Part shown: positions 48,626 through 57,652 of the stretch, piece by piece
Layout: every line of letters begins with the position of its first letter
Position numbering within the stretch: the stretch's first letter is position 1
Origin: Aeromicrobium tamlense
Lineage (GTDB): Bacteria > Actinomycetota > Actinomycetes > Propionibacteriales > Nocardioidaceae
Length of the DNA: 64,000 nt
NCBI RefSeq assembly: GCF_013408555.1
Contig: NZ_JACBZN010000001.1
Coordinates: 1,674,001-1,738,000, forward strand
Direction: 5' to 3'
Program-made: the position numbers and the translations under genes
Notes under the pieces: generated by a model
The model's input: only the letters and a program-made list of their open reading frames with translations
What the model was told of the DNA's origin: nothing
The model's database searches: none

Positions 48626-49204
48626 CTAGTCCCGGTCGCTCCGCCGCCGTGCCACGACCGTGCCTGCGGCGACGGCGAGCACGAACGCCCCGACCACCAA
48701 CGCGATCTGGGCGCTGTCGGCGCCCGGGGAGACGGTCGGCGGCTCCCGGACGGTCATCCGCGGGTCGACGGACTCCGCCGTCACCTCGAAGGCCGGCTGG
48801 GACCGAGCGCCTACACGTCCGTCCCCGCACTGCTGCTCGGACACGACCGCGACCTCCGGAGCCGCCTCCTCGCCGATGCGCGCCGTGACGAGGAACTCGG
48901 TCGCCTGTCCTGGCGGGATGCCGGTACCGGCGAACTCCACGCGCGGACCGTCGAGGACTCGCGTCCACCCGTCGGGCGCCGTGGCATCGATCAGCGACAC
49001 GTCGTCAGGCACCTCGAGCGCCAACCCGGTGGTCGGGGCGTCGCCGCAGCCGTCCTCGACGGCGACCACGAGGACGGTGGTCCCGTCGCCCTGGGGCACG
49101 ATCCCCTCGATCGCGGCATCGGCGATCGCGGGCGAAGCCGCCCCGACGACCAGAGCGACGGCGGCGCTCGCGGCGGCCAGGGTGAGTCTCGGTCGATCGC
49201 TCAT
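48626..49204 (-). CDS. DUF1775/YcnI-like exported protein
   Basis: A 192-residue protein with an N-terminal signal peptide (AAASAAVALVVGAASPAIADA) and one C-terminal membrane helix followed by RRRSD, so it is a membrane-anchored extracytoplasmic domain. EDGCGDAPTTGLALEVPDDVSLIDATAPDGWTRVLDGPRVEFAGTGIPPGQATEFLVTARI follows the YcnI pattern (GC..APTT..L...P.....V....GW). It lacks the mature N-terminal His that YcnI uses for copper, so it may be a partner or a derived copy of the YcnI at 50847-51557. Its ATG overlaps the CopCD stop (ATGA). It is the last gene of the copper operon. Confidence 0.72.
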   Translation of the reverse strand: MSDRPRLTLAAASAAVALVVGAASPAIADAAIEGIVPQGDGTTVLVVAVEDGCGDAPTTGLALEVPDDVSLIDATAPDGWTRVLDGPRVEFAGTGIPPGQATEFLVTARIGEEAAPEVAVVSEQQCGDGRVGARSQPAFEVTAESVDPRMTVREPPTVSPGADSAQIALVVGAFVLAVAAGTVVARRRSDRD

Positions 49205-50850
49205 GGGATCAGCACCTCCGTCGACACGACGGGCTCGTCGAACCGGGTCAGCCGCACGGCCACCAGCAGCCGCCAGGCGCCCGGCAGAGGGAGGTCCGCG
49301 GTGCCCTCCCAGTGACCCGGGCCCGTTCGGGTCAGCGGCCGGTTGATCGGGCCGACGTCTCCCTCCTCGAGCGAGATCTGCAGGCGTGGCGGATCGGGCA
49401 GGTCCACCACGCGGCCCGCGCCGTCCGTCAGTTCGATCTGCACGGCGTTCACTCCGCGGCGCGTGGGCGACACGACGACCTCGACACGGTGGGAGTCCTC
49501 CAGCTCGAGCTGCGCGCGCTGGACGGTCGGCACGTCCCTGACGACGGTGTCGGTCCGCGGGGGCGGGGTCTGCCCGACGAGCACGCCGGTGGCGAGCAGC
49601 ACTCCGGCGATCACGACGGCCTCGAAGGCCACGGTGCGCCGGAGGACGCGCGCCCCCGCCTCGGCGTCGCGTCCGGAGACGCGGCGCACGACGAACCGAC
49701 GGTTCCATGCCGCGACCGCGACCACGGGGACGAGCAGGAGCGCCTTGATCATCACCGATCTGCCGTACCCGGTCTCCCACAGGGCCGCGAACGAGTCCGC
49801 GACCCGCCAGTAGAGGACGATGCCCGCCGCGACGAGCCCGACGACCGACACCCCGGCAACGGAGGAGAAACGGGAGAGGGTGGCCGCGCGCTCCCGCACC
49901 CGCAGGGTCGAGCCCGACGCGAGGACGATCGCGAGGCCGATCAGTCCGCCCCACCAGACCGCGCCGGCGAGCACGTGCAGGACGTCGGCCGGGACGACGA
50001 GCCACCAGGGACCGTAGCTGCGGGTGTGCCCGACCGGCGCGAGCGAGGAGAGCATCAGCGCGACCCCGACCGCGGCGAGCACGGGCTCACGCGATCGCCC
50101 GCGCAGCGCCGCCGCCACTCCCAGGAGCGCCAGGAGTGTGGCCACGCCGGCGGACGAGGTCAGTCCGTCGCGCCAGGCATCGAGACGCGCGACCGCGGAC
50201 AGCTCCTCCCCCGACTCCCACACGGCGGTGAGGGGTGCGAGCAGGACGGAGGCGATGACGGCGAGCGCGGCGAGTCGCCGCGTGGCTGCGCGCGTGCGTC
50301 GCTCGACGTCCTGCGCCCGGCGCACGGAGGAGGGCACCGCGAAGAGCGAGAAGGCGACGAGCCCGGCGAGCCCGAGCACACCGGCGTAGCGGAGGGCCTC
50401 GACGACCGACCGTCCCACGACGAGCTCGCGCTGGGCCTCGGAATCCGGCACGCCGATCGCGCCGGGCGTCGCCTCGCCCACCGCGAACGTGAACCCACCG
50501 GTGACGGGGTGGGAGTCGGCCGACACGACGCGCCACGTCACGACGTGGGTCCCCGTCGGCAGGGGCTGTTCGGGACGGATCGTGAGGACGGAGTCACGCA
50601 CGGAGAACTCCGCCGGCTCCTCCTCGCCCGTGGCGTCGAGCACGGCGTTGCCGTTCCCCGCGAGCGTCACCGGCTCCGTGAACGACACGGTGAGCTCGCT
50701 CGGCGAGGACGTCAGCACCTGCCCGTCCGCGGGGTTGCTCCCGATCGGCGTGGCGTGGCCGAACGCGGCGGCCGGCCACACCAGGAGCAGGAGCAGCCCG
50801 GAGAGCACGGCGGCGAGCCGTGCTCTCCGGGCGCGTGGGGCGAAGGTCAC
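49201..50850 (-). CDS. CopC-CopD fusion copper uptake/resistance protein
   Basis: A 549-residue fusion. After a signal peptide, residues 32-125 are a CopC domain starting with HATPIGSNPADGQVL, whose N-terminal His is the Cu(II) ligand, and ending with DSHPVTGGFTFAVG. Residues 145-430 contain about eight membrane helices of the CopD type (LHVLAGAVWWGGLIGLAIVLASG). A C-terminal periplasmic domain of about 100 residues (FixH/YtkA-like, ending LTRTGPGHWEGTADLPLPGAWRLLVAV) completes it. CopC binds copper outside and CopD passes it inward. It is coupled to YcnI and the DUF1775-like gene by ATGA overlaps. Confidence 0.9.
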   Translation of the reverse strand: MTFAPRARRARLAAVLSGLLLLLVWPAAAFGHATPIGSNPADGQVLTSSPSELTVSFTEPVTLAGNGNAVLDATGEEEPAEFSVRDSVLTIRPEQPLPTGTHVVTWRVVSADSHPVTGGFTFAVGEATPGAIGVPDSEAQRELVVGRSVVEALRYAGVLGLAGLVAFSLFAVPSSVRRAQDVERRTRAATRRLAALAVIASVLLAPLTAVWESGEELSAVARLDAWRDGLTSSAGVATLLALLGVAAALRGRSREPVLAAVGVALMLSSLAPVGHTRSYGPWWLVVPADVLHVLAGAVWWGGLIGLAIVLASGSTLRVRERAATLSRFSSVAGVSVVGLVAAGIVLYWRVADSFAALWETGYGRSVMIKALLLVPVVAVAAWNRRFVVRRVSGRDAEAGARVLRRTVAFEAVVIAGVLLATGVLVGQTPPPRTDTVVRDVPTVQRAQLELEDSHRVEVVVSPTRRGVNAVQIELTDGAGRVVDLPDPPRLQISLEEGDVGPINRPLTRTGPGHWEGTADLPLPGAWRLLVAVRLTRFDEPVVSTEVLIP

Positions 50851-51557
50851 GCGCGCTTCCGCGTGCGACCCAGCGCGAGTCCGCCGGCCGCGAGTCCCAG
50901 CGCGCCGAGCACGACGCCGGCCCAGCCCAGCGCGTCGGAGCCCGAGCCGGCCTCGGCCGTCTCGTCCGCGTCCGCGCCGGCGTCGGCGTCGGCGTCGCCA
51001 TGACCGCCGTGACCGTCGGTCTCGGCGGCCGTCGTCGTGATGAACGGCGCCGGGGACTCGGGCTCGTCCTGACCCTCCTCATAGGTCTGCGTCCAGGCGG
51101 TCTCGCCCTTCTCGCAGGTCTGGATCACGGGGAAGACGAGCTTCTCGCCCTCCTCCTCGGGCAGCGGCAGCTGCAACGAGACGGTGTCGCGCAGACCGTC
51201 GGCCAGCGGCGTCTTGGCCGTGTAGACGACTTCCGCGACGCGCTCGGTGTACTCGCTGCCATGGCTCCCCTTGACGGCGGACTCGAGCTTCTCGATCTTC
51301 TTCTCGACCGTCCAGTTCGGGTTGACCGTCGGCGTCACGGCGATGACCTCCTCAGGGATCTGGAAGGTCAGCTGCGTCGTCGGCGAGGCCTCGCAGCCGT
51401 GGCCGACCGAGAAGGTCAACACGGCGTAGGAGCCGGCAGCCGTCGAGGACGGCGTGACCGAGACGTGGGCCGAGGCCGCTCCGGCGCCGAGGACCACGAG
51501 GGCCGAGGACGTGAGGGCGAGCGCTGCCGTCCGGGCAGCACGAGGGGCAAGGGACAT
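50847..51557 (-). CDS. ycnI: YcnI family copper-binding protein (DUF1775)
   Basis: A 236-residue exported protein. The signal peptide ends ...GAASA and the mature chain begins HVSVTPSSTAAGSYAVLTFSVGHGCEASPTTQLTFQIPE, the DUF1775 signature; the terminal His with a conserved Trp further on (NWTVEKK) binds Cu(II) in YcnI. The C-terminus has an Asp/Ala/His-rich stretch (HGGHGDADADAGADAD) and a membrane helix. AGGAG lies 7 nt before the ATG. Probable role: copper chaperone on the outer face of the membrane that feeds the CopCD fusion. A palindrome lies just upstream (51580-51597). Confidence 0.92.
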   Translation of the reverse strand: MSLAPRAARTAALALTSSALVVLGAGAASAHVSVTPSSTAAGSYAVLTFSVGHGCEASPTTQLTFQIPEEVIAVTPTVNPNWTVEKKIEKLESAVKGSHGSEYTERVAEVVYTAKTPLADGLRDTVSLQLPLPEEEGEKLVFPVIQTCEKGETAWTQTYEEGQDEPESPAPFITTTAAETDGHGGHGDADADAGADADETAEAGSGSDALGWAGVVLGALGLAAGGLALGRTRKRA

Positions 51558-51579
51558 GGTTCTTCTCCTGGTTCGGTGA

Positions 51580-51597
51580 CCGCCTGAGGTCAGGCGG
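51580..51597. promoter_or_regulatory. Perfect palindrome upstream of ycnI-copCD operon
   Basis: Arms CCGCCTGA and TCAGGCGG, 2 nt apart, lie 22 nt before the ycnI start and just after the end of the upstream membrane protein gene. It could be an operator for a metal regulator or a short attenuating hairpin. Confidence 0.5.
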
Positions 51598-51604
51598 AGA
51601 GGAG

Positions 51605-52147
51605 TCACCCGCAGATGCGGGCGACCGGGGCGGTGACGACCCGGGAGAAGGGCGGACCTCGCCGCACCACGATGTGCTCGAGCAGAGCGGACGGATGCAG
51701 CGGCTCGGCCCCACGGAGCGCGAGCGCGACCGGCACCGGCGCCGTGACGGGACGGACGAGGCGCAGGACGAAGGTGACGTGGCGCCACCACGACCACCAG
51801 AGGCGCTCGGCCAGCGCGATGCCCGCCGCGACGACTCCGAGCCCGAGCACGTGGGCGACCAGCATGCCCACGCCCGGGACCACGTCGTGGCCGTGGACGT
51901 AGCCCGTCAGCACGTGGACGACGACCTGCGGGACCGCGAGCAGCCCGAGGGCGACGGCGAATCCGATCCGCCGCGCGGCGGCCCACCAGGCCAGCGCGGC
52001 CCCGGCGGCGACGACCGGCACGAGCACCACGGCCGGGGGCGGCTGACCGCTCCCGGAGACGTGCGCGCCGACGGCGATGAGGGTCGACCACAGGCTCACG
52101 GAGCCGGCACGCACGACGCGTGCGACCGGAGCGGCGGGGGCGACCAT
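51605..52147 (-). CDS. Small polytopic membrane protein of the copper operon
   Basis: A 180-residue protein with four to five hydrophobic helices between residues 15 and 135 and a basic C-terminal tail. A His-containing loop (VVVHVLTGYVHGHDVVPGVGMLVAHVLGLG) could bind metal. Similar small membrane proteins precede YcnI/CopCD genes in other actinobacteria, but I do not recognise a named family. TACGCT 6 nt before the ATG indicates a leaderless transcript; it is codirectional with ycnI, 47 nt upstream of it. Confidence 0.7.
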   Translation of the reverse strand: MVAPAAPVARVVRAGSVSLWSTLIAVGAHVSGSGQPPPAVVLVPVVAAGAALAWWAAARRIGFAVALGLLAVPQVVVHVLTGYVHGHDVVPGVGMLVAHVLGLGVVAAGIALAERLWWSWWRHVTFVLRLVRPVTAPVPVALALRGAEPLHPSALLEHIVVRRGPPFSRVVTAPVARICG

Positions 52148-52159: not shown

Positions 52160-52379
52160 GGGCCACGCGTCCCCGCTCCCGACGCCGGTGACCTGATGTT
52201 TACACGCCCGTCACGGCCCTGCGGCCCCTCAGTCCCATTCGGTGTCTCATTCACGATCGCGACTCCTTCACATCGACGGCGCTTTCGTAACGCGCCAGTT
52301 CCCGCCGCGACCGCCGCGTGAAACGCGTCGCCACCAGATTGATGGCCGAATCGACCCCGGCCAGAAGGAACTTCCCCGC

Positions 52380-53870
52380 ATGTCTGCTACTCGCGTCCTG
52401 TCCCAGCTCACCGCAGCCGCCGTCGCCACGACGGCCCTGGCGACCCTCACCTCGTCGGTCGCGCACGCGGAGGCGACGGGCGTCATCCGCGGCACCGTCC
52501 TGGAGACCGGACACGTCATCGCGCCGGGCATCGACGTGTCGCTCTACCGACTCAGCGGAGAGTTCGTCCAGGCGACGGTCGCCGACTCGTCGGCAGGAGG
52601 GTACGCCTTCACCGGACTGGAGCCCGGCTCCTACATCCTGTGGTTCGAGAACCAGAACGAAGCCGTCAGCGAGTGGTACGACAACCAGCCCGACAAGCCT
52701 CAGGCCACGCCGATCACGCTCGGCGCCGGGCAGACGTACGTCGCCGACGCGTACCTGACCCAGATCAGCGAGAACCTCGCCGTGCCGACGATCTCGGGCA
52801 CTCCCACCGTGGGCTCGGTGCTGACCGCGAGCCGTGGCACCTGGTACCCGACGCAGGGCGTCGAGTTCAGCCACCAATGGCTGCGTGACGGCGCCGTCAT
52901 CGCCGGCGCGACGACCTCCACCTACCGACTGCGCGACGCGGACGGCGGTCACCGCATCTCCGTCCGCTCCGTGGCGATGGTGCAGGGGGCCACGGAGACG
53001 GCCACGAGCGCGTCCACCGCACTCGTCACGGGTGGGACGGCCCCGGTCGAGACGATCGCGAACGTCGCGAAGCCCGCGATCTCGGGGTCCACGACCGTGG
53101 GCTCCGTGCTCACGGCCACCCCGGGAAGCTGGACGCCGGCCGACGCGAGCGTGACCCTCCAGTGGCTGCGAGGCGACACGGTGGTCGGGACCGGAAGCAG
53201 CTACACCACGGCGACCCAGGACATCGGCTCGGTGCTGCGCGTGCGGGCCACCGCGTCGAGGTCCGGCTGGACCGCCGGCGTCGCCGAGTCCACCGACTTC
53301 GGACCGATCACCAGCGCCGCCCCCGTGCTGGTCGCACCGGTCCTGGTGACTCCGCCGACCGTGTCCGGCACCGCCCGCGTCGGCAGCACGCTCACGGCCA
53401 CGACCGGATCGTGGAGCACCGCGGCCTCCCACGCCTTCCGGTGGACGCGCAACGGCAAGGCCATCTCCGGCGCGACCGGCCGGTCCCACCGTCTCACCCC
53501 CGCCGACGCCCGCGCCCGGATCGCGGTCGTGGTGACCGCGAGCAACCCTGCGGGCGGCGCGAGCGCCACCAGCGCCGCGCGTCCGGTCGCCCGGGCCACG
53601 ACCCGCCTGAGCGCCTCGGCGAAGCCGCTGCGCAAGGGACGGCTGAAGGTCACGGCCAAGGTCACCTCGCAGGGGTCGCGCACCGGGCGGGTCACCATCA
53701 CGGTCAAGTCCGGCGGCAAGACCAAGGTCGTCCGCACGACGCTCTCCCGCGGCAGCCGCACCCTCACGATCAAGGGCCTGCGCAAGGGCCGCGCGACGGT
53801 GCGCGTCGTCTACGCCGGAGACGCGTCCACCAGCGGCGCCTCCCTCACCAGGAAGACGACCGTGCGCTGA
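52380..53870 (+). CDS. Secreted multi-domain protein with carboxypeptidase-like and Ig-like repeats
   Basis: A 496-residue exported protein. A signal peptide (LTAAAVATTALATLTSSVAHA) is followed by a CNA-B/SdrD-type domain (VIRGTVLETG...GGYAFTGLEPGSYILWF, residues 30-125), three Ig-like repeats of about 90 residues (each GTPTVGSVLTA...GTW...QWLRDG..I.GA....Y....D.G..I.VR), and a C-terminal Big_3-like domain (residues 410-496) that is Lys/Arg-rich. There is no sortase motif or enzyme domain, so it is probably a wall-associated adhesin or scaffold. ATG 52380 has an AGAAGGAA site. Its Ig and C-terminal modules recur in the amine oxidase two genes downstream. Confidence 0.82.
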   Translation: MSATRVLSQLTAAAVATTALATLTSSVAHAEATGVIRGTVLETGHVIAPGIDVSLYRLSGEFVQATVADSSAGGYAFTGLEPGSYILWFENQNEAVSEWYDNQPDKPQATPITLGAGQTYVADAYLTQISENLAVPTISGTPTVGSVLTASRGTWYPTQGVEFSHQWLRDGAVIAGATTSTYRLRDADGGHRISVRSVAMVQGATETATSASTALVTGGTAPVETIANVAKPAISGSTTVGSVLTATPGSWTPADASVTLQWLRGDTVVGTGSSYTTATQDIGSVLRVRATASRSGWTAGVAESTDFGPITSAAPVLVAPVLVTPPTVSGTARVGSTLTATTGSWSTAASHAFRWTRNGKAISGATGRSHRLTPADARARIAVVVTASNPAGGASATSAARPVARATTRLSASAKPLRKGRLKVTAKVTSQGSRTGRVTITVKSGGKTKVVRTTLSRGSRTLTIKGLRKGRATVRVVYAGDASTSGASLTRKTTVR

Positions 53871-54005: not shown

Positions 54006-54761
54006 GTGAATGCGTCACAGCGCGTGCCCTGGAGGACACGCAAAGTCGCCGTCGCTGCACTCGCCCTCGGACTGACCGCCGCCGCGACGACCTACGTCAT
54101 GGCGCAACAGGACGTGAGCGGCACCGACTCCGGCGAGAGCAGCAAGTTCACCGTCGTCGGCGACGGCGACCTGCCCACCAGCAAGCCGAAGCTCGGCGCC
54201 GACCGAGCCACGCTCTCGGCGGAGGAGACCGGCTACGCCATCCACGTCGCGTCCACCGACGCGAGCATCCCCGCGGACGCGACCGACGTGCGGGGGAAGG
54301 CGGGGCCGGAGTTCCTCTACGCCGACCTGCCCGACCTGGGTGACGACTACACCGGCCGCAAGGCCGTGGTCGCGCTGTACGACTACACGCACGACATCGC
54401 CTACGACCAGGTCGTGGACCTCGGCGCCGGCAAGGTCGTGGACTCCACGAAGTCGGCCAAGGCCCAGCCTCCGACCTCGGCCACCGAGGCGGACCTGGCC
54501 ATGCGGATCGCCGTCGAGTCCGAGGAGAAGCTGGCGTTCAAGGCCGAGTTCGAGGAGAACATGGGCGTCCCGCTCATCGATCCCGACCAGGTCGACTACG
54601 TCGCCGGCTCGTGGGTCTTCAACAAGACCACCGCCAAGGGCAAGGAGTGCGGCGAGGACCGCTGCGCCCAGCTGATGGTCTCGACCGCGTCCGGGGTGTA
54701 CCTCAACACCTTCGACTTCGTCGTGAACCTGTCCACCCAGAAGATCGTCCGCACGCAGTGA
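54006..54761 (+). CDS. Exported protein corresponding to the N2/N3 domains of copper amine oxidase
   Basis: A 251-residue protein with an N-terminal membrane/signal helix (VAVAALALGLTAAATTYVMA). The remainder follows the amine oxidase N-terminal region: ATLSAEETGYAIHVASTDASIP (N2 helix), GRKAVVALYDYTHDIAYDQVVDLGAGKVVDS...QPP (start of N3), AVESEEKLAFKAEFEENMGVPLIDPDQVDYVAGSW and YLNTFDFVVNLSTQKIVRT (end of N3). No catalytic residues are present. The next gene, 17 nt downstream, begins where an amine oxidase catalytic domain would. GTG 54006 follows AAGGAG; the preceding ATG overlaps it as ATGTGA. Inference: a separate subunit of a split enzyme. Confidence 0.72.
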   Translation: MNASQRVPWRTRKVAVAALALGLTAAATTYVMAQQDVSGTDSGESSKFTVVGDGDLPTSKPKLGADRATLSAEETGYAIHVASTDASIPADATDVRGKAGPEFLYADLPDLGDDYTGRKAVVALYDYTHDIAYDQVVDLGAGKVVDSTKSAKAQPPTSATEADLAMRIAVESEEKLAFKAEFEENMGVPLIDPDQVDYVAGSWVFNKTTAKGKECGEDRCAQLMVSTASGVYLNTFDFVVNLSTQKIVRTQ

Positions 54762-54778
54762 GCAGGGAGAGAAGTCCG

Positions 54779-56872
54779 ATGCGAAAGAAGACAGTGACGC
54801 GGATCGTCGCCGCCGGCGCGACCGCACTCCTCACGGCAGGCCTGGTCTCGGTCCTGCCCTCGACGGCGGCGACCGCCGCCGAGTCGCCCCTGGCGTGTGC
54901 GGACAGCCTCATCGAGAAGGAGCTGGAGAACGGGTCCGCGTGGCGGATGTGCGCGCGCATCCACCCGATCAAGGGCCTCATCCTCGAGCAGATCGAGTTC
55001 AAGCCGGCCACGGGCGACTACGAGTACGCGGGCTACAAGCGCGTGCTCGACCAGCTCAACATCGCCCAGCTGAACGTGCCGTACGACACCGGTCACGTGC
55101 AGTACAACGACATCACCTCGTACGGGTTCGGCAAGCAGTACCTGATGACGCAGGGGCCCGAGGTGTGCTCCGGCGAGGCGCTCGACGTGGACCAGTCGTT
55201 CACGTACAGCGGACGTCTCGTGGAGCGGACTATCCCGGGCATCTGCGTGCAGGAGGACCCCACGGGACTCATGACGCACGCCCAGGAGACCCAGATCGGC
55301 GGCGGCACGCTGTACGCCGACCAGGGCACGACCCTCGCCGTCTCGTCCATCTCGAAGATCAGCTGGTACGAGTACCAGCAGCGCGTCTCCTTCGACGACC
55401 ACGGTCAGATCGACGTCGGCCTCGGCGCCACGGGCGACATCGCACCCGGCTGGGCCTCCGAGAGCCAGACAGGTGCGTTCTTCGGCACCAACCCCAAGGT
55501 CGGCTGGCCCCTGTCGGGCAAGTCCACCGTGACGTCGACCCAGGGCGGCCAGACCACCACCAAGGAGGTCCAGTCGTACGCGGGCTCGCACTGGCACAAC
55601 GCGATCTACAAGGTGGACTTCGGCATCGACAAGGCCGAGCGGCAGACGGTCGAGCAGTGGGACTTCAGCAGCCCCGGGTCCGGGACGCGCGCTCCGATCG
55701 TCGAGGGCACGGGAACGGTCAAGAGCTCGGCCTTCTCCTCGGTCGAGAACGAGGACCACGACCAGCTCAGCTGGTGGCGCGTGCTGAACCCCAACAGCAA
55801 GAACAAGGACGGGCACGCGCGCTCGTACGAGATCGTGAACAACAACACCTCCAACGCGCTGATCCCGGTCACGTCGCCGGCGGTGTCGTTCACGAACTAC
55901 CGCTCGTGCGAGGAGTACGCCTCGGACAACCTCAACGCGGGGTGCCCGGGACAGACCATCCTCGACTACGTCGCGAACGACACCCACGAGCTGACCGACC
56001 CGGTCGCGTGGGTGAACGTCGGGTTCCACCACACCGACAAGGACGAGGACCAGTCGCCGATGCCGATCCACTGGCAGAAGTTCCAGCTGGTCCCGCGTGA
56101 CTTCTTCGCCCAGAAGCCGACGATCAAGGATGCGCGCAAGTGCATCAACGGTCCGTTCTCCTCGGTGAACGCGGTCACGAAGCCGTGCACGCCGGAGAAC
56201 ACGGTCAAGCCGAAGATCACCGACAAGGCCGACAGCACCGCGACCGTCGTTCCCGCCGTGGGCAAGGTCCTGACGTCGAGCGCGGGCACGTGGCGCAGTG
56301 CGGCCCAGAGCCTGACCTACGCGTACACCTGGTTCCGCAACGGCGAGGCCGTGTCGACGGGCCAGGACTACACCCTGAGCGAGGCCGACATGAACGCATC
56401 GATCTCGGTCAAGGTGAACGCATCGGCCGCCGGCTTCCCGTCGAACGTCGCCGAGTCCGACGCGGTCGTGTGGGGCACCCCGCCCACGACGGCTCCCACC
56501 CCGGAGCCGACGACCGAGCCGACGACCGCCCCGACGACGGCGCCCACCACGGCACCGACGACGGCGCCCACCACGCGGCCCGTCGCCAAGGCGACGCCGC
56601 GCGTGGCGGTGCGGCTGGCGGCCAAGACCGTGAAGCCCGGCCGGAAGAACAAGGTCGCCGTCACGGTGACCGCGGCCGGCAAGCCGGTCTCCGGGAAGGT
56701 GCGACTCACGGTGAACGGCAGCGTGAGGACGCTGACCCTGGTGAAGGGTCGCACCAACCTCACCTTCACGGCACCGAAGAAGCCGAAGGGGTACGTCGTG
56801 AAGGCGTCGTACGCCGGAAGCGGCACGGTCAAGTCGGGAACCGCCGCGGTGAAGTACGTGGTCAGGAAGTGA
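54779..56872 (+). CDS. Exported copper amine oxidase catalytic domain with Ig-like C-terminal modules
   Basis: A 697-residue protein. After a signal peptide (residues 1-38) comes the amine oxidase core: WRMCARIHPIKGLILEQIEF, VPYDTGHVQYND with the likely catalytic base Asp111, TIPGICVQEDPTG, ISWYEYQQRVSFDDHGQIDVGLGATG with the topaquinone-precursor candidate Tyr197, SHWHNAIYKVDFG with copper ligands His271/His273, and VAWVNVGFHHTDKDEDQSPMPIHWQKFQLVPRDFF with the third His region. Asp111-Tyr197 spacing (86) is like that of known enzymes (83-84). The usual Asn before the Tyr is Trp. Residues 475-570 are an Ig-like repeat, then a Pro/Thr linker and a Big_3-like domain. Confidence 0.75.
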   Translation: MRKKTVTRIVAAGATALLTAGLVSVLPSTAATAAESPLACADSLIEKELENGSAWRMCARIHPIKGLILEQIEFKPATGDYEYAGYKRVLDQLNIAQLNVPYDTGHVQYNDITSYGFGKQYLMTQGPEVCSGEALDVDQSFTYSGRLVERTIPGICVQEDPTGLMTHAQETQIGGGTLYADQGTTLAVSSISKISWYEYQQRVSFDDHGQIDVGLGATGDIAPGWASESQTGAFFGTNPKVGWPLSGKSTVTSTQGGQTTTKEVQSYAGSHWHNAIYKVDFGIDKAERQTVEQWDFSSPGSGTRAPIVEGTGTVKSSAFSSVENEDHDQLSWWRVLNPNSKNKDGHARSYEIVNNNTSNALIPVTSPAVSFTNYRSCEEYASDNLNAGCPGQTILDYVANDTHELTDPVAWVNVGFHHTDKDEDQSPMPIHWQKFQLVPRDFFAQKPTIKDARKCINGPFSSVNAVTKPCTPENTVKPKITDKADSTATVVPAVGKVLTSSAGTWRSAAQSLTYAYTWFRNGEAVSTGQDYTLSEADMNASISVKVNASAAGFPSNVAESDAVVWGTPPTTAPTPEPTTEPTTAPTTAPTTAPTTAPTTRPVAKATPRVAVRLAAKTVKPGRKNKVAVTVTAAGKPVSGKVRLTVNGSVRTLTLVKGRTNLTFTAPKKPKGYVVKASYAGSGTVKSGTAAVKYVVRK
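56531..56578 (+). repeat. 24-bp tandem repeat encoding a Pro/Thr linker
   Basis: Two units (56531-56554, 56555-56578) differ only in the last three bases. They encode part of a PTTAPTTAPTTAP-type linker between the Ig-like domain and the last domain of the amine oxidase. Confidence 0.85.
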
Positions 56873-56956: not shown

Positions 56957-57652
56957 ATGCGCGTGACGACTCTCCTTCGCCCCCTCGCCCTCGTGGTGGC
57001 GACGCTGGCCCTCACCGGCTGCGGATCGCAACCCCAGCAGGTGGCGCTCGGCGGCACCCAGGCCTCCGAGACCGCGGCGGACCGGCCCACGGTGGAGCGC
57101 CCGTGGGGCACCGTGAAGACCTTCCCCCGACTGCAGAAGGCGGAGCCGCCGGCGGCGGCCGACATCGCGTTCGCGCGGGACATGATCCTGCACCACCGGC
57201 AGGCCATCGAGCTCTCGGAGAACGTCCGCCGTCATGCGGGCCTCGACGAGCGCGTCAGCGCCTCGGCCCGGTTCATCGTCCAGGACCAGCGCAACGAGAT
57301 CACGACCATGAAGGCGTGGCTGCGCGCCTGGCAGCAGCCCGTGGACGATGCCGCCGACGATCACGACCACACGGCGGGCACGATGCCGGGCATGATCGCG
57401 GCCGAGCGCGTGGACGAGATCGCGACGCTCCCCACGCCCGACGCCCAGGTGGCGTTCCTCCGAGCGATGATCGAGCACCACGAGGGTGCCATCACGATGT
57501 CGCAGGACTACCTGCCCGTTCAGTCGAACGCGTTCGTCCACAGCACCGCGACGCACATCATCGCCGAGCAGACCACCGAGGTGCGCTACATGGAGGGTCT
57601 GGTCCGGGAGTGGTGCGAGACCAACGGGCCCCGGACGTGCCCCGCGAGCTGA
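56957..57652 (+). CDS. DUF305 family lipoprotein
   Basis: A 231-residue exported lipoprotein with lipobox LALTGC. The mature part has the two DUF305 helices ARDMILHHRQAIELSENV and LRAMIEHHEGAITMSQDYL, each with an M..HH motif, and a His/Met-rich loop between them (DDHDHTAGTMPGM). DUF305 proteins are ferritin-like bundles often encoded next to copper genes and presumed to bind metal at the membrane. GGAG precedes the ATG. The last 16 nt overlap the signal peptidase gene. Confidence 0.9.
   Translation: MRVTTLLRPLALVVATLALTGCGSQPQQVALGGTQASETAADRPTVERPWGTVKTFPRLQKAEPPAAADIAFARDMILHHRQAIELSENVRRHAGLDERVSASARFIVQDQRNEITTMKAWLRAWQQPVDDAADDHDHTAGTMPGMIAAERVDEIATLPTPDAQVAFLRAMIEHHEGAITMSQDYLPVQSNAFVHSTATHIIAEQTTEVRYMEGLVREWCETNGPRTCPAS

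Follow-up and report, generated by a model that had tools for sequence, protein, structure and literature searches.

Can a copper amine oxidase be divided between two separately exported proteins? This question is raised by two adjoining genes in a 64,000-nucleotide stretch of the Aeromicrobium tamlense genome (contig NZ_JACBZN010000001.1; the whole stretch is called the window here, and features lie on its plus strand unless stated otherwise). Gene A (54006..54761) starts with GTG and encodes 251 amino acids, while gene B (54779..56872) encodes a predicted exported protein of 697 amino acids. A reading made from the sequence alone had proposed that A is the N2/N3 region (domains D2 and D3) and B the catalytic domain (D4) of one enzyme, and the domain identity of the halves, the cut between D3 and D4, the conserved pairing and the retained catalytic residues all emerged from our analysis, together with a change from Asn to Trp beside the cofactor-forming tyrosine. 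We therefore consider it likely that A and B together form a single exported copper amine oxidase as its two subunits, to which A would give D2 and D3 in trans.

Domain identity of the halves and position of the cut

Protein B matched the Pfam family PF01179 (Cu_amine_oxid) over residues 54-448 with an E-value of 7.5e-32 (111.2 bits against a cut-off of 27), and a 441-residue model of it, built from 28 sequences (predicted local distance difference test score, pLDDT, 86.3; predicted template modelling score 0.87), gave a best Foldseek E-value of 6.6e-24. VIA-align placed this model on the enzymes of Arthrobacter globiformis (AGAO) and Escherichia coli (ECAO) with Z-scores of 35-37 over 362-372 aligned residues, the best row being 6grr (ECAO; Z 37.2, root mean square deviation, rmsd, 3.2, 368 aligned). 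The D4 enzyme domain (54893..56125) is taken from row 1ivv, in which AGAO 232-623 corresponds to model residues 4-414; VIA-align ranges give the first and last residue only, and the other rows for B put its first few residues on a distant N-terminal residue (starts 9 or 138). A second D4 match was absent from the genome of the window at E-values up to 0.001.

Protein A gave no match in a phmmer search of PDB chains and a weak one to the N-region of NCBIfam PRK11504 (E 0.0033), a region to which three A relatives from other genomes also matched weakly (E 0.0037, 0.078 and 0.15). Profile-profile comparison of 13 A proteins with 15 single-chain rows, some of which are the same gene fetched twice, gave an E-value of 8.9e-6 and a probability of 83% over 192 columns. 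The N-regions of L067 (a single-chain enzyme of the Asn type) and L045, neither of which is a fusion of the type described below, matched profile A1 and therefore support the homology of A. An AlphaFold2 model of A from 13 sequences had a mean pLDDT of 81, with residues 1-49 under 50, and copper amine oxidases made up all 50 of the Foldseek PDB matches listed for it, headed by 1oac (ECAO; E 3.3e-6, probability 1.00). VIA-align laid residues 60-251 on residues 17-207 of the Hansenula polymorpha enzyme HPAO-1 (1ekm; Z 10.2, rmsd 3.5, 171 aligned), and residues 64-251 on ECAO 93-279 (Z 9.1, rmsd 3.6, 167 aligned) and on AGAO 9-190 (row 3wa2, Z about 7). The AGAO value alone is not decisive, because folds other than copper amine oxidases reached Z 7.7 in these rows (4exr; one domain, 65 residues), and it is the HPAO and ECAO rows that exceed them. 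Taken together, the profile-profile comparison and those of its predicted structure confirm A as the D2 and D3 part of a copper amine oxidase, running from residue 59-64 to 251 (54180..54758).

Relative to AGAO, the chain is interrupted between residue 190 (row 3wa2) and about residue 232 (row 1ivv), which is the junction of D3 and D4, so that D2-D3 and D4 lie on separate chains and the claim of a split exactly at the domain boundary holds. The coordinates and the 17-nt spacing from the stop of A to the start of B (54762..54778, with a purine-rich stretch inside) were also correct, and the two genes are in different reading frames. An export signal on each half had been proposed as well and was recognised by eye: B begins with a typical predicted Sec-type signal peptide (about residues 1-34; 54779..54880), which its catalytic domain follows, and A with a hydrophobic helix (residues 12-32; 54039..54101), lying in the low-confidence stretch of the model, which may be an export signal, cleaved or anchoring.

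Protein A also carries the motif C-G-E-D-R-C at residues 215-220 (54648..54665), and the general form CGxxRC was present in 39/39 A partners and in 0/15 single-chain open reading frames (ORFs). Some A proteins of other genomes end in His-rich tails, with 7 His in the last 40 residues of L022:2792-3700, 4 in L003:7027-7890 and 3 in L021:2765-3565, and these tails are perhaps copper-binding.

Conservation of the pair across genomes

A pattern-based scan of contigs, which reaches close relatives only, returned six relatives, in all of which an A-like ORF precedes B, and among relatives with complete ORFs A was adjacent to and separate from B in 12/12. One of the six is frameshifted in both genes (L006:7082-9895, Nocardioides alcanivorans NGK65, where an intact pair, L004, is also present); it may be a sequence error or a decaying second copy, and it was excluded from alignments A1-A3 and from the tree.

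Wider searches, whose genome draws overlap, found the split form repeatedly. Among 149 Nocardioidaceae genomes 20 gave a match, nine split (including the genome of the window) and 11 single-chain, and A lay upstream in all eight of the other split loci, one of which is the contig of L005 (Nocardioides lianchengensis). The split form was seen in nine of 196 genomes of the order. When 396 genomes from the phylum were searched, B of the split type occurred in six (the genome of the window and five of the genus labelled g28) and single-chain kinds in 20, while A was found in seven, namely the six with split B and G394. In the genus g28 (199 genomes), 86 genomes contributed 93 B places and 84 genomes 90 A places. 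At 88 of the 93 B places A lay upstream in the same orientation, at a distance of up to 1.5 kb; a further 15 places are not counted in the 93, being weak matches of single-chain-like kind or, in G728, the four fragments of a copy that looks broken. The five exceptions are G684, where B begins at base 171 of a contig and A is found on a different one, G638 and G703, which are partial matches, G713, where a second copy is matched in part, and G640, a second copy described below.

The residues around the precursor tyrosine of split-type B read W-Y-x-Y, and 44 of the 45 rows with this motif hold A in the same locus; in none of these 44 do the two share an ORF, the reading frames of the 88 g28 pairs having been checked for the loci that are also among the 45 rows. 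The search for the pair and for fused versions that the sequence-only reading had called for thus returned a recurrent pair and, in these rows, no fusion. In a tree built without L006, repeats and overlapping rows, and labelled by the W-Y motif, 40 WY-type D4 rows were separated from 32 single-chain rows by a branch supported at 100/100; its root is not placed, so it gives no direction of change between split and single-chain forms. The pairwise identities of A and B at 13 loci were closely correlated (Spearman 0.95), which is not evidence of contact between them, because shared descent alone would give such a value. Mutual exclusion of the split and single-chain forms is not claimed, as the 149 genomes showed 0 overlaps where chance alone would give about 0.7, and both kinds of match occur in some genomes of g28.

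Several other relatives deserve mention. G394, of the same phylum, encodes a 538-residue single chain (L104:7702-9318) whose N-part matches profile A1 and whose C-part, a highly diverged D4, matches PF01179 (6.3e-9) weakly and at residues 255-303 only (49 residues); this protein, and also L045, is possibly another offshoot of the family. Among plasmids 51 records matched, with identities of 20.6-26.3% among the matches listed (best 40 of 51), and the one that was inspected has N-Y-E-Y in a single chain. In g28, L101, L102 and L103 are second A-B copies; the gene after them belongs to the beta-lactamase family (by Pfam, for L102 only), and a long ORF of 1200-2400 codons lies close by.

The active site and the gene surroundings

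The features of a topaquinone (TPQ) enzyme, namely a D4 domain, three His copper ligands, a precursor tyrosine and a catalytic Asp, are all present in B. The copper ligands are the H-x-H pair of His271-Trp-His273 (55589..55597; columns H236 and H238 of alignment A3) and His418 (56030..56032; H383), the precursor is Tyr197 in the motif W-Y-E-Y (55367..55369; Y162), the catalytic base is Asp111 (55109..55111; D76; equivalent to AGAO Asp298) and the V-P-Y tyrosine is Tyr102 (55082..55084; Y67; equivalent to AGAO Tyr284). In the 28 rows of A3 (22 split and six single-chain) the V-P-Y Tyr, the Asp base, the precursor Tyr, the H-x-H pair, the distant His and two D4 cysteines are invariant (28/28).

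The residue before the precursor tyrosine was Trp in 45/45 split B rows (41 distinct loci and four repeats) compared to Asn in 38/38 single-chain rows (from about 33 different places), and in the alignment Trp196 of the window (55364..55366) stands at the place of AGAO Asn381. Position -4 differs too, as the Thr of single-chain rows is replaced in split rows by Lys, Gln, Ala or Glu, and the motif in the window is Lys-x-x-Trp-Tyr-Glu. Excerpts of a 2012 review call this Asn strictly conserved (PMC3382800), and in the AGAO variant N381A, according to an excerpt of a further report, TPQ formation was down 180-fold and kcat down 160-fold, with flipped rings in crystals (PMC9491219). Given these defects, the Trp in B is either compensated or accompanied by changed chemistry, and it probably alters cofactor formation or turnover.

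The sequence-only reading was silent on this W-Y-E-Y motif and on the final third of B (beginning near residue 480; 56216..56869), which is Ig-like and Thr/Pro-rich, similar to the Ig-like repeats of the exported protein encoded upstream of the pair (52242..53870); this tail was absent from 5/5 g28 loci read. Copper-related genes, assigned by Pfam, flank the pair in the window: a CopC-CopD fusion (49201..50850, minus strand) and a DUF1775 protein (50847..52091, minus strand) lie divergently upstream, and a DUF305/CopM-like lipoprotein, also matched in NCBIfam, lies downstream (56957..57652). Together with the upstream Ig-like protein, CopC-CopD and DUF1775 make up a copper-related neighbourhood beside the pair. 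Twenty neighbourhoods were compared, among them the window itself, the locus of G394, which has no split pair, and L100, which lacks A; the CopC-CopD gene occurred in 4/20 and the DUF305 gene in 5/20. Copper genes are therefore not a constant partner, and a copper-operon context was rejected as the explanation. All four g28 main loci in this comparison instead have alpha-amylase- and isoamylase-family genes upstream and an SAV2148-like HEPN gene downstream (Pfam on L093 only).

Assembly, alternative explanations and comparison with known enzymes

From these observations we infer the physical association of A and B, and likewise their stoichiometry, activity, location and substrate, along the following lines. 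The halves would be exported by their separate signals and assembled outside the membrane, where A would pack on D4 at the position that D2/D3 take in single-chain enzymes, giving an A2B2 assembly around a D4 dimer. The D4 beta-sandwich of B would bind copper via His271, His273 and His418 and make its quinone from Tyr197, with Asp111 as base, to convert a primary amine to an aldehyde, ammonia and hydrogen peroxide; the Trp in place of the Asn that steers TPQ would then alter cofactor formation or turnover. Protein A may also line part of the amine entry channel, because HPAO residues 155 and 156, given as channel positions in excerpts of the review (PMC3382800), lie in the stretch of HPAO to which A was aligned. 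The earlier choice between a hetero-oligomer and a catalytic domain freed from its N-domains falls in favour of the former, because the pair is adjacent, separate and conserved (12/12 relatives with complete ORFs and 88/93 g28 places).

Several observations weigh against the two-subunit enzyme. Protein A matched 0 Pfam families at E-values up to 10, and three of its relatives matched 0 at E-values up to 1, so of the proposed identification of A with the N2 and N3 domains (which we take to be PF02727 and PF02728) the fold and profile-profile matches to D2/D3 stood and the direct profile match did not. The Foldseek TM-scores of A, by query length, are modest (0.36-0.50), and its identity to solved D2-D3 regions in the copper amine oxidase rows of VIA-align is only 9-20%. 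In G640 a second WY-type D4 gene with W-Y-H-Y (L100:8205-9386) has no adjoining A, an A-like gene lying about 112 kb off on the same contig. TPQ formation is not certain either, because B departs from the consensus at both -4 (Thr) and -1 (Asn) in 45/45 rows.

A lone B is one alternative: B would be a minimal, D4-only amine oxidase and A a separate protein, such as a chaperone of D2-D3 descent that loads copper or aids folding. D4 does hold most of the conserved active-site residues, and its arms make dimer contacts, according to excerpts of the review (PMC3382800), while three of 39 A proteins (L003, L021, L022) have at least three His in their last 40 residues and the window has its copper-related neighbours. 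Neither the His-rich tails nor the copper neighbours are general, however, and A covers both D2 and D3, ends where D3 ends and stands beside B at 88 of 93 places, with contig ends or fragments accounting for two or three of the exceptions, so we regard a D4-only enzyme as unlikely. The changed consensus might alternatively mean that the pair is a catalytically dead protein that binds copper or an amine, yet 28/28 rows keep the copper ligands, the precursor Tyr, the Asp base and the V-P-Y Tyr unchanged, which a dead enzyme would not need. The ratio of non-synonymous to synonymous substitution rates against five relatives, 0.25-0.43 for A and lower, at 0.15-0.26, for B, indicates that both genes are under purifying selection, and a pseudo-enzyme thus seems to us quite improbable. 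That the gene of an ordinary single-chain enzyme was recently broken, or looks so through an error in the sequence, as the two-ORF layout and the relative with both genes frameshifted might suggest, is rejected as having a negligible chance, since the halves differ in reading frame, have their own export segments in the loci read and keep this layout in several genera from at least three families and in nearly 100 genomes.

We thus return to A and B as two subunits of one enzyme. A bolder form of this proposal, which we offer only tentatively, is that they represent a lineage of obligate A2B2 enzymes assembled outside the membrane, in which a Cu-Tyr-Trp site gives either TPQ under a different conformational control or some other tyrosine-derived cofactor, with chemistry or substrates unlike those of single-chain enzymes.

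A split copper amine oxidase was described in no title or abstract beginning among the literature matches listed, and the structurally characterised copper amine oxidases are all homodimers in excerpts of the 2012 review (PMC3382800). The pair shares with AGAO and the bacterial single-chain enzymes (PRK11504, PF01179) the folds of D2, D3 and D4, the three His ligands, the precursor Tyr, the catalytic Asp, the V-P-Y Tyr and the two D4 cysteines. It differs from them in being two chains, both predicted to be exported, in the CGxxRC motif of A and in a D4 identity of only 20-24%, as well as in having Trp for Asn381 of AGAO and, among split rows, a consensus Thr replaced by Lys, Gln, Ala or Glu. 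HPAO-1, which gave the best VIA-align row for A (14% identity in the aligned part), is a single chain, as is ECAO, which gave the best VIA-align row for B and the best Foldseek row for A; ECAO has in addition an extra D1 domain, according to excerpts of the review (PMC3382800). The G394 protein, unlike the split pair, is a single chain with a much diverged D4. Both the one-chain layout and the Asn rule are broken by a widespread lineage, which offers a natural test of the role of D2/D3 and of the control that the neighbour of the tyrosine exerts over quinone formation, because the halves can be expressed apart and then mixed.
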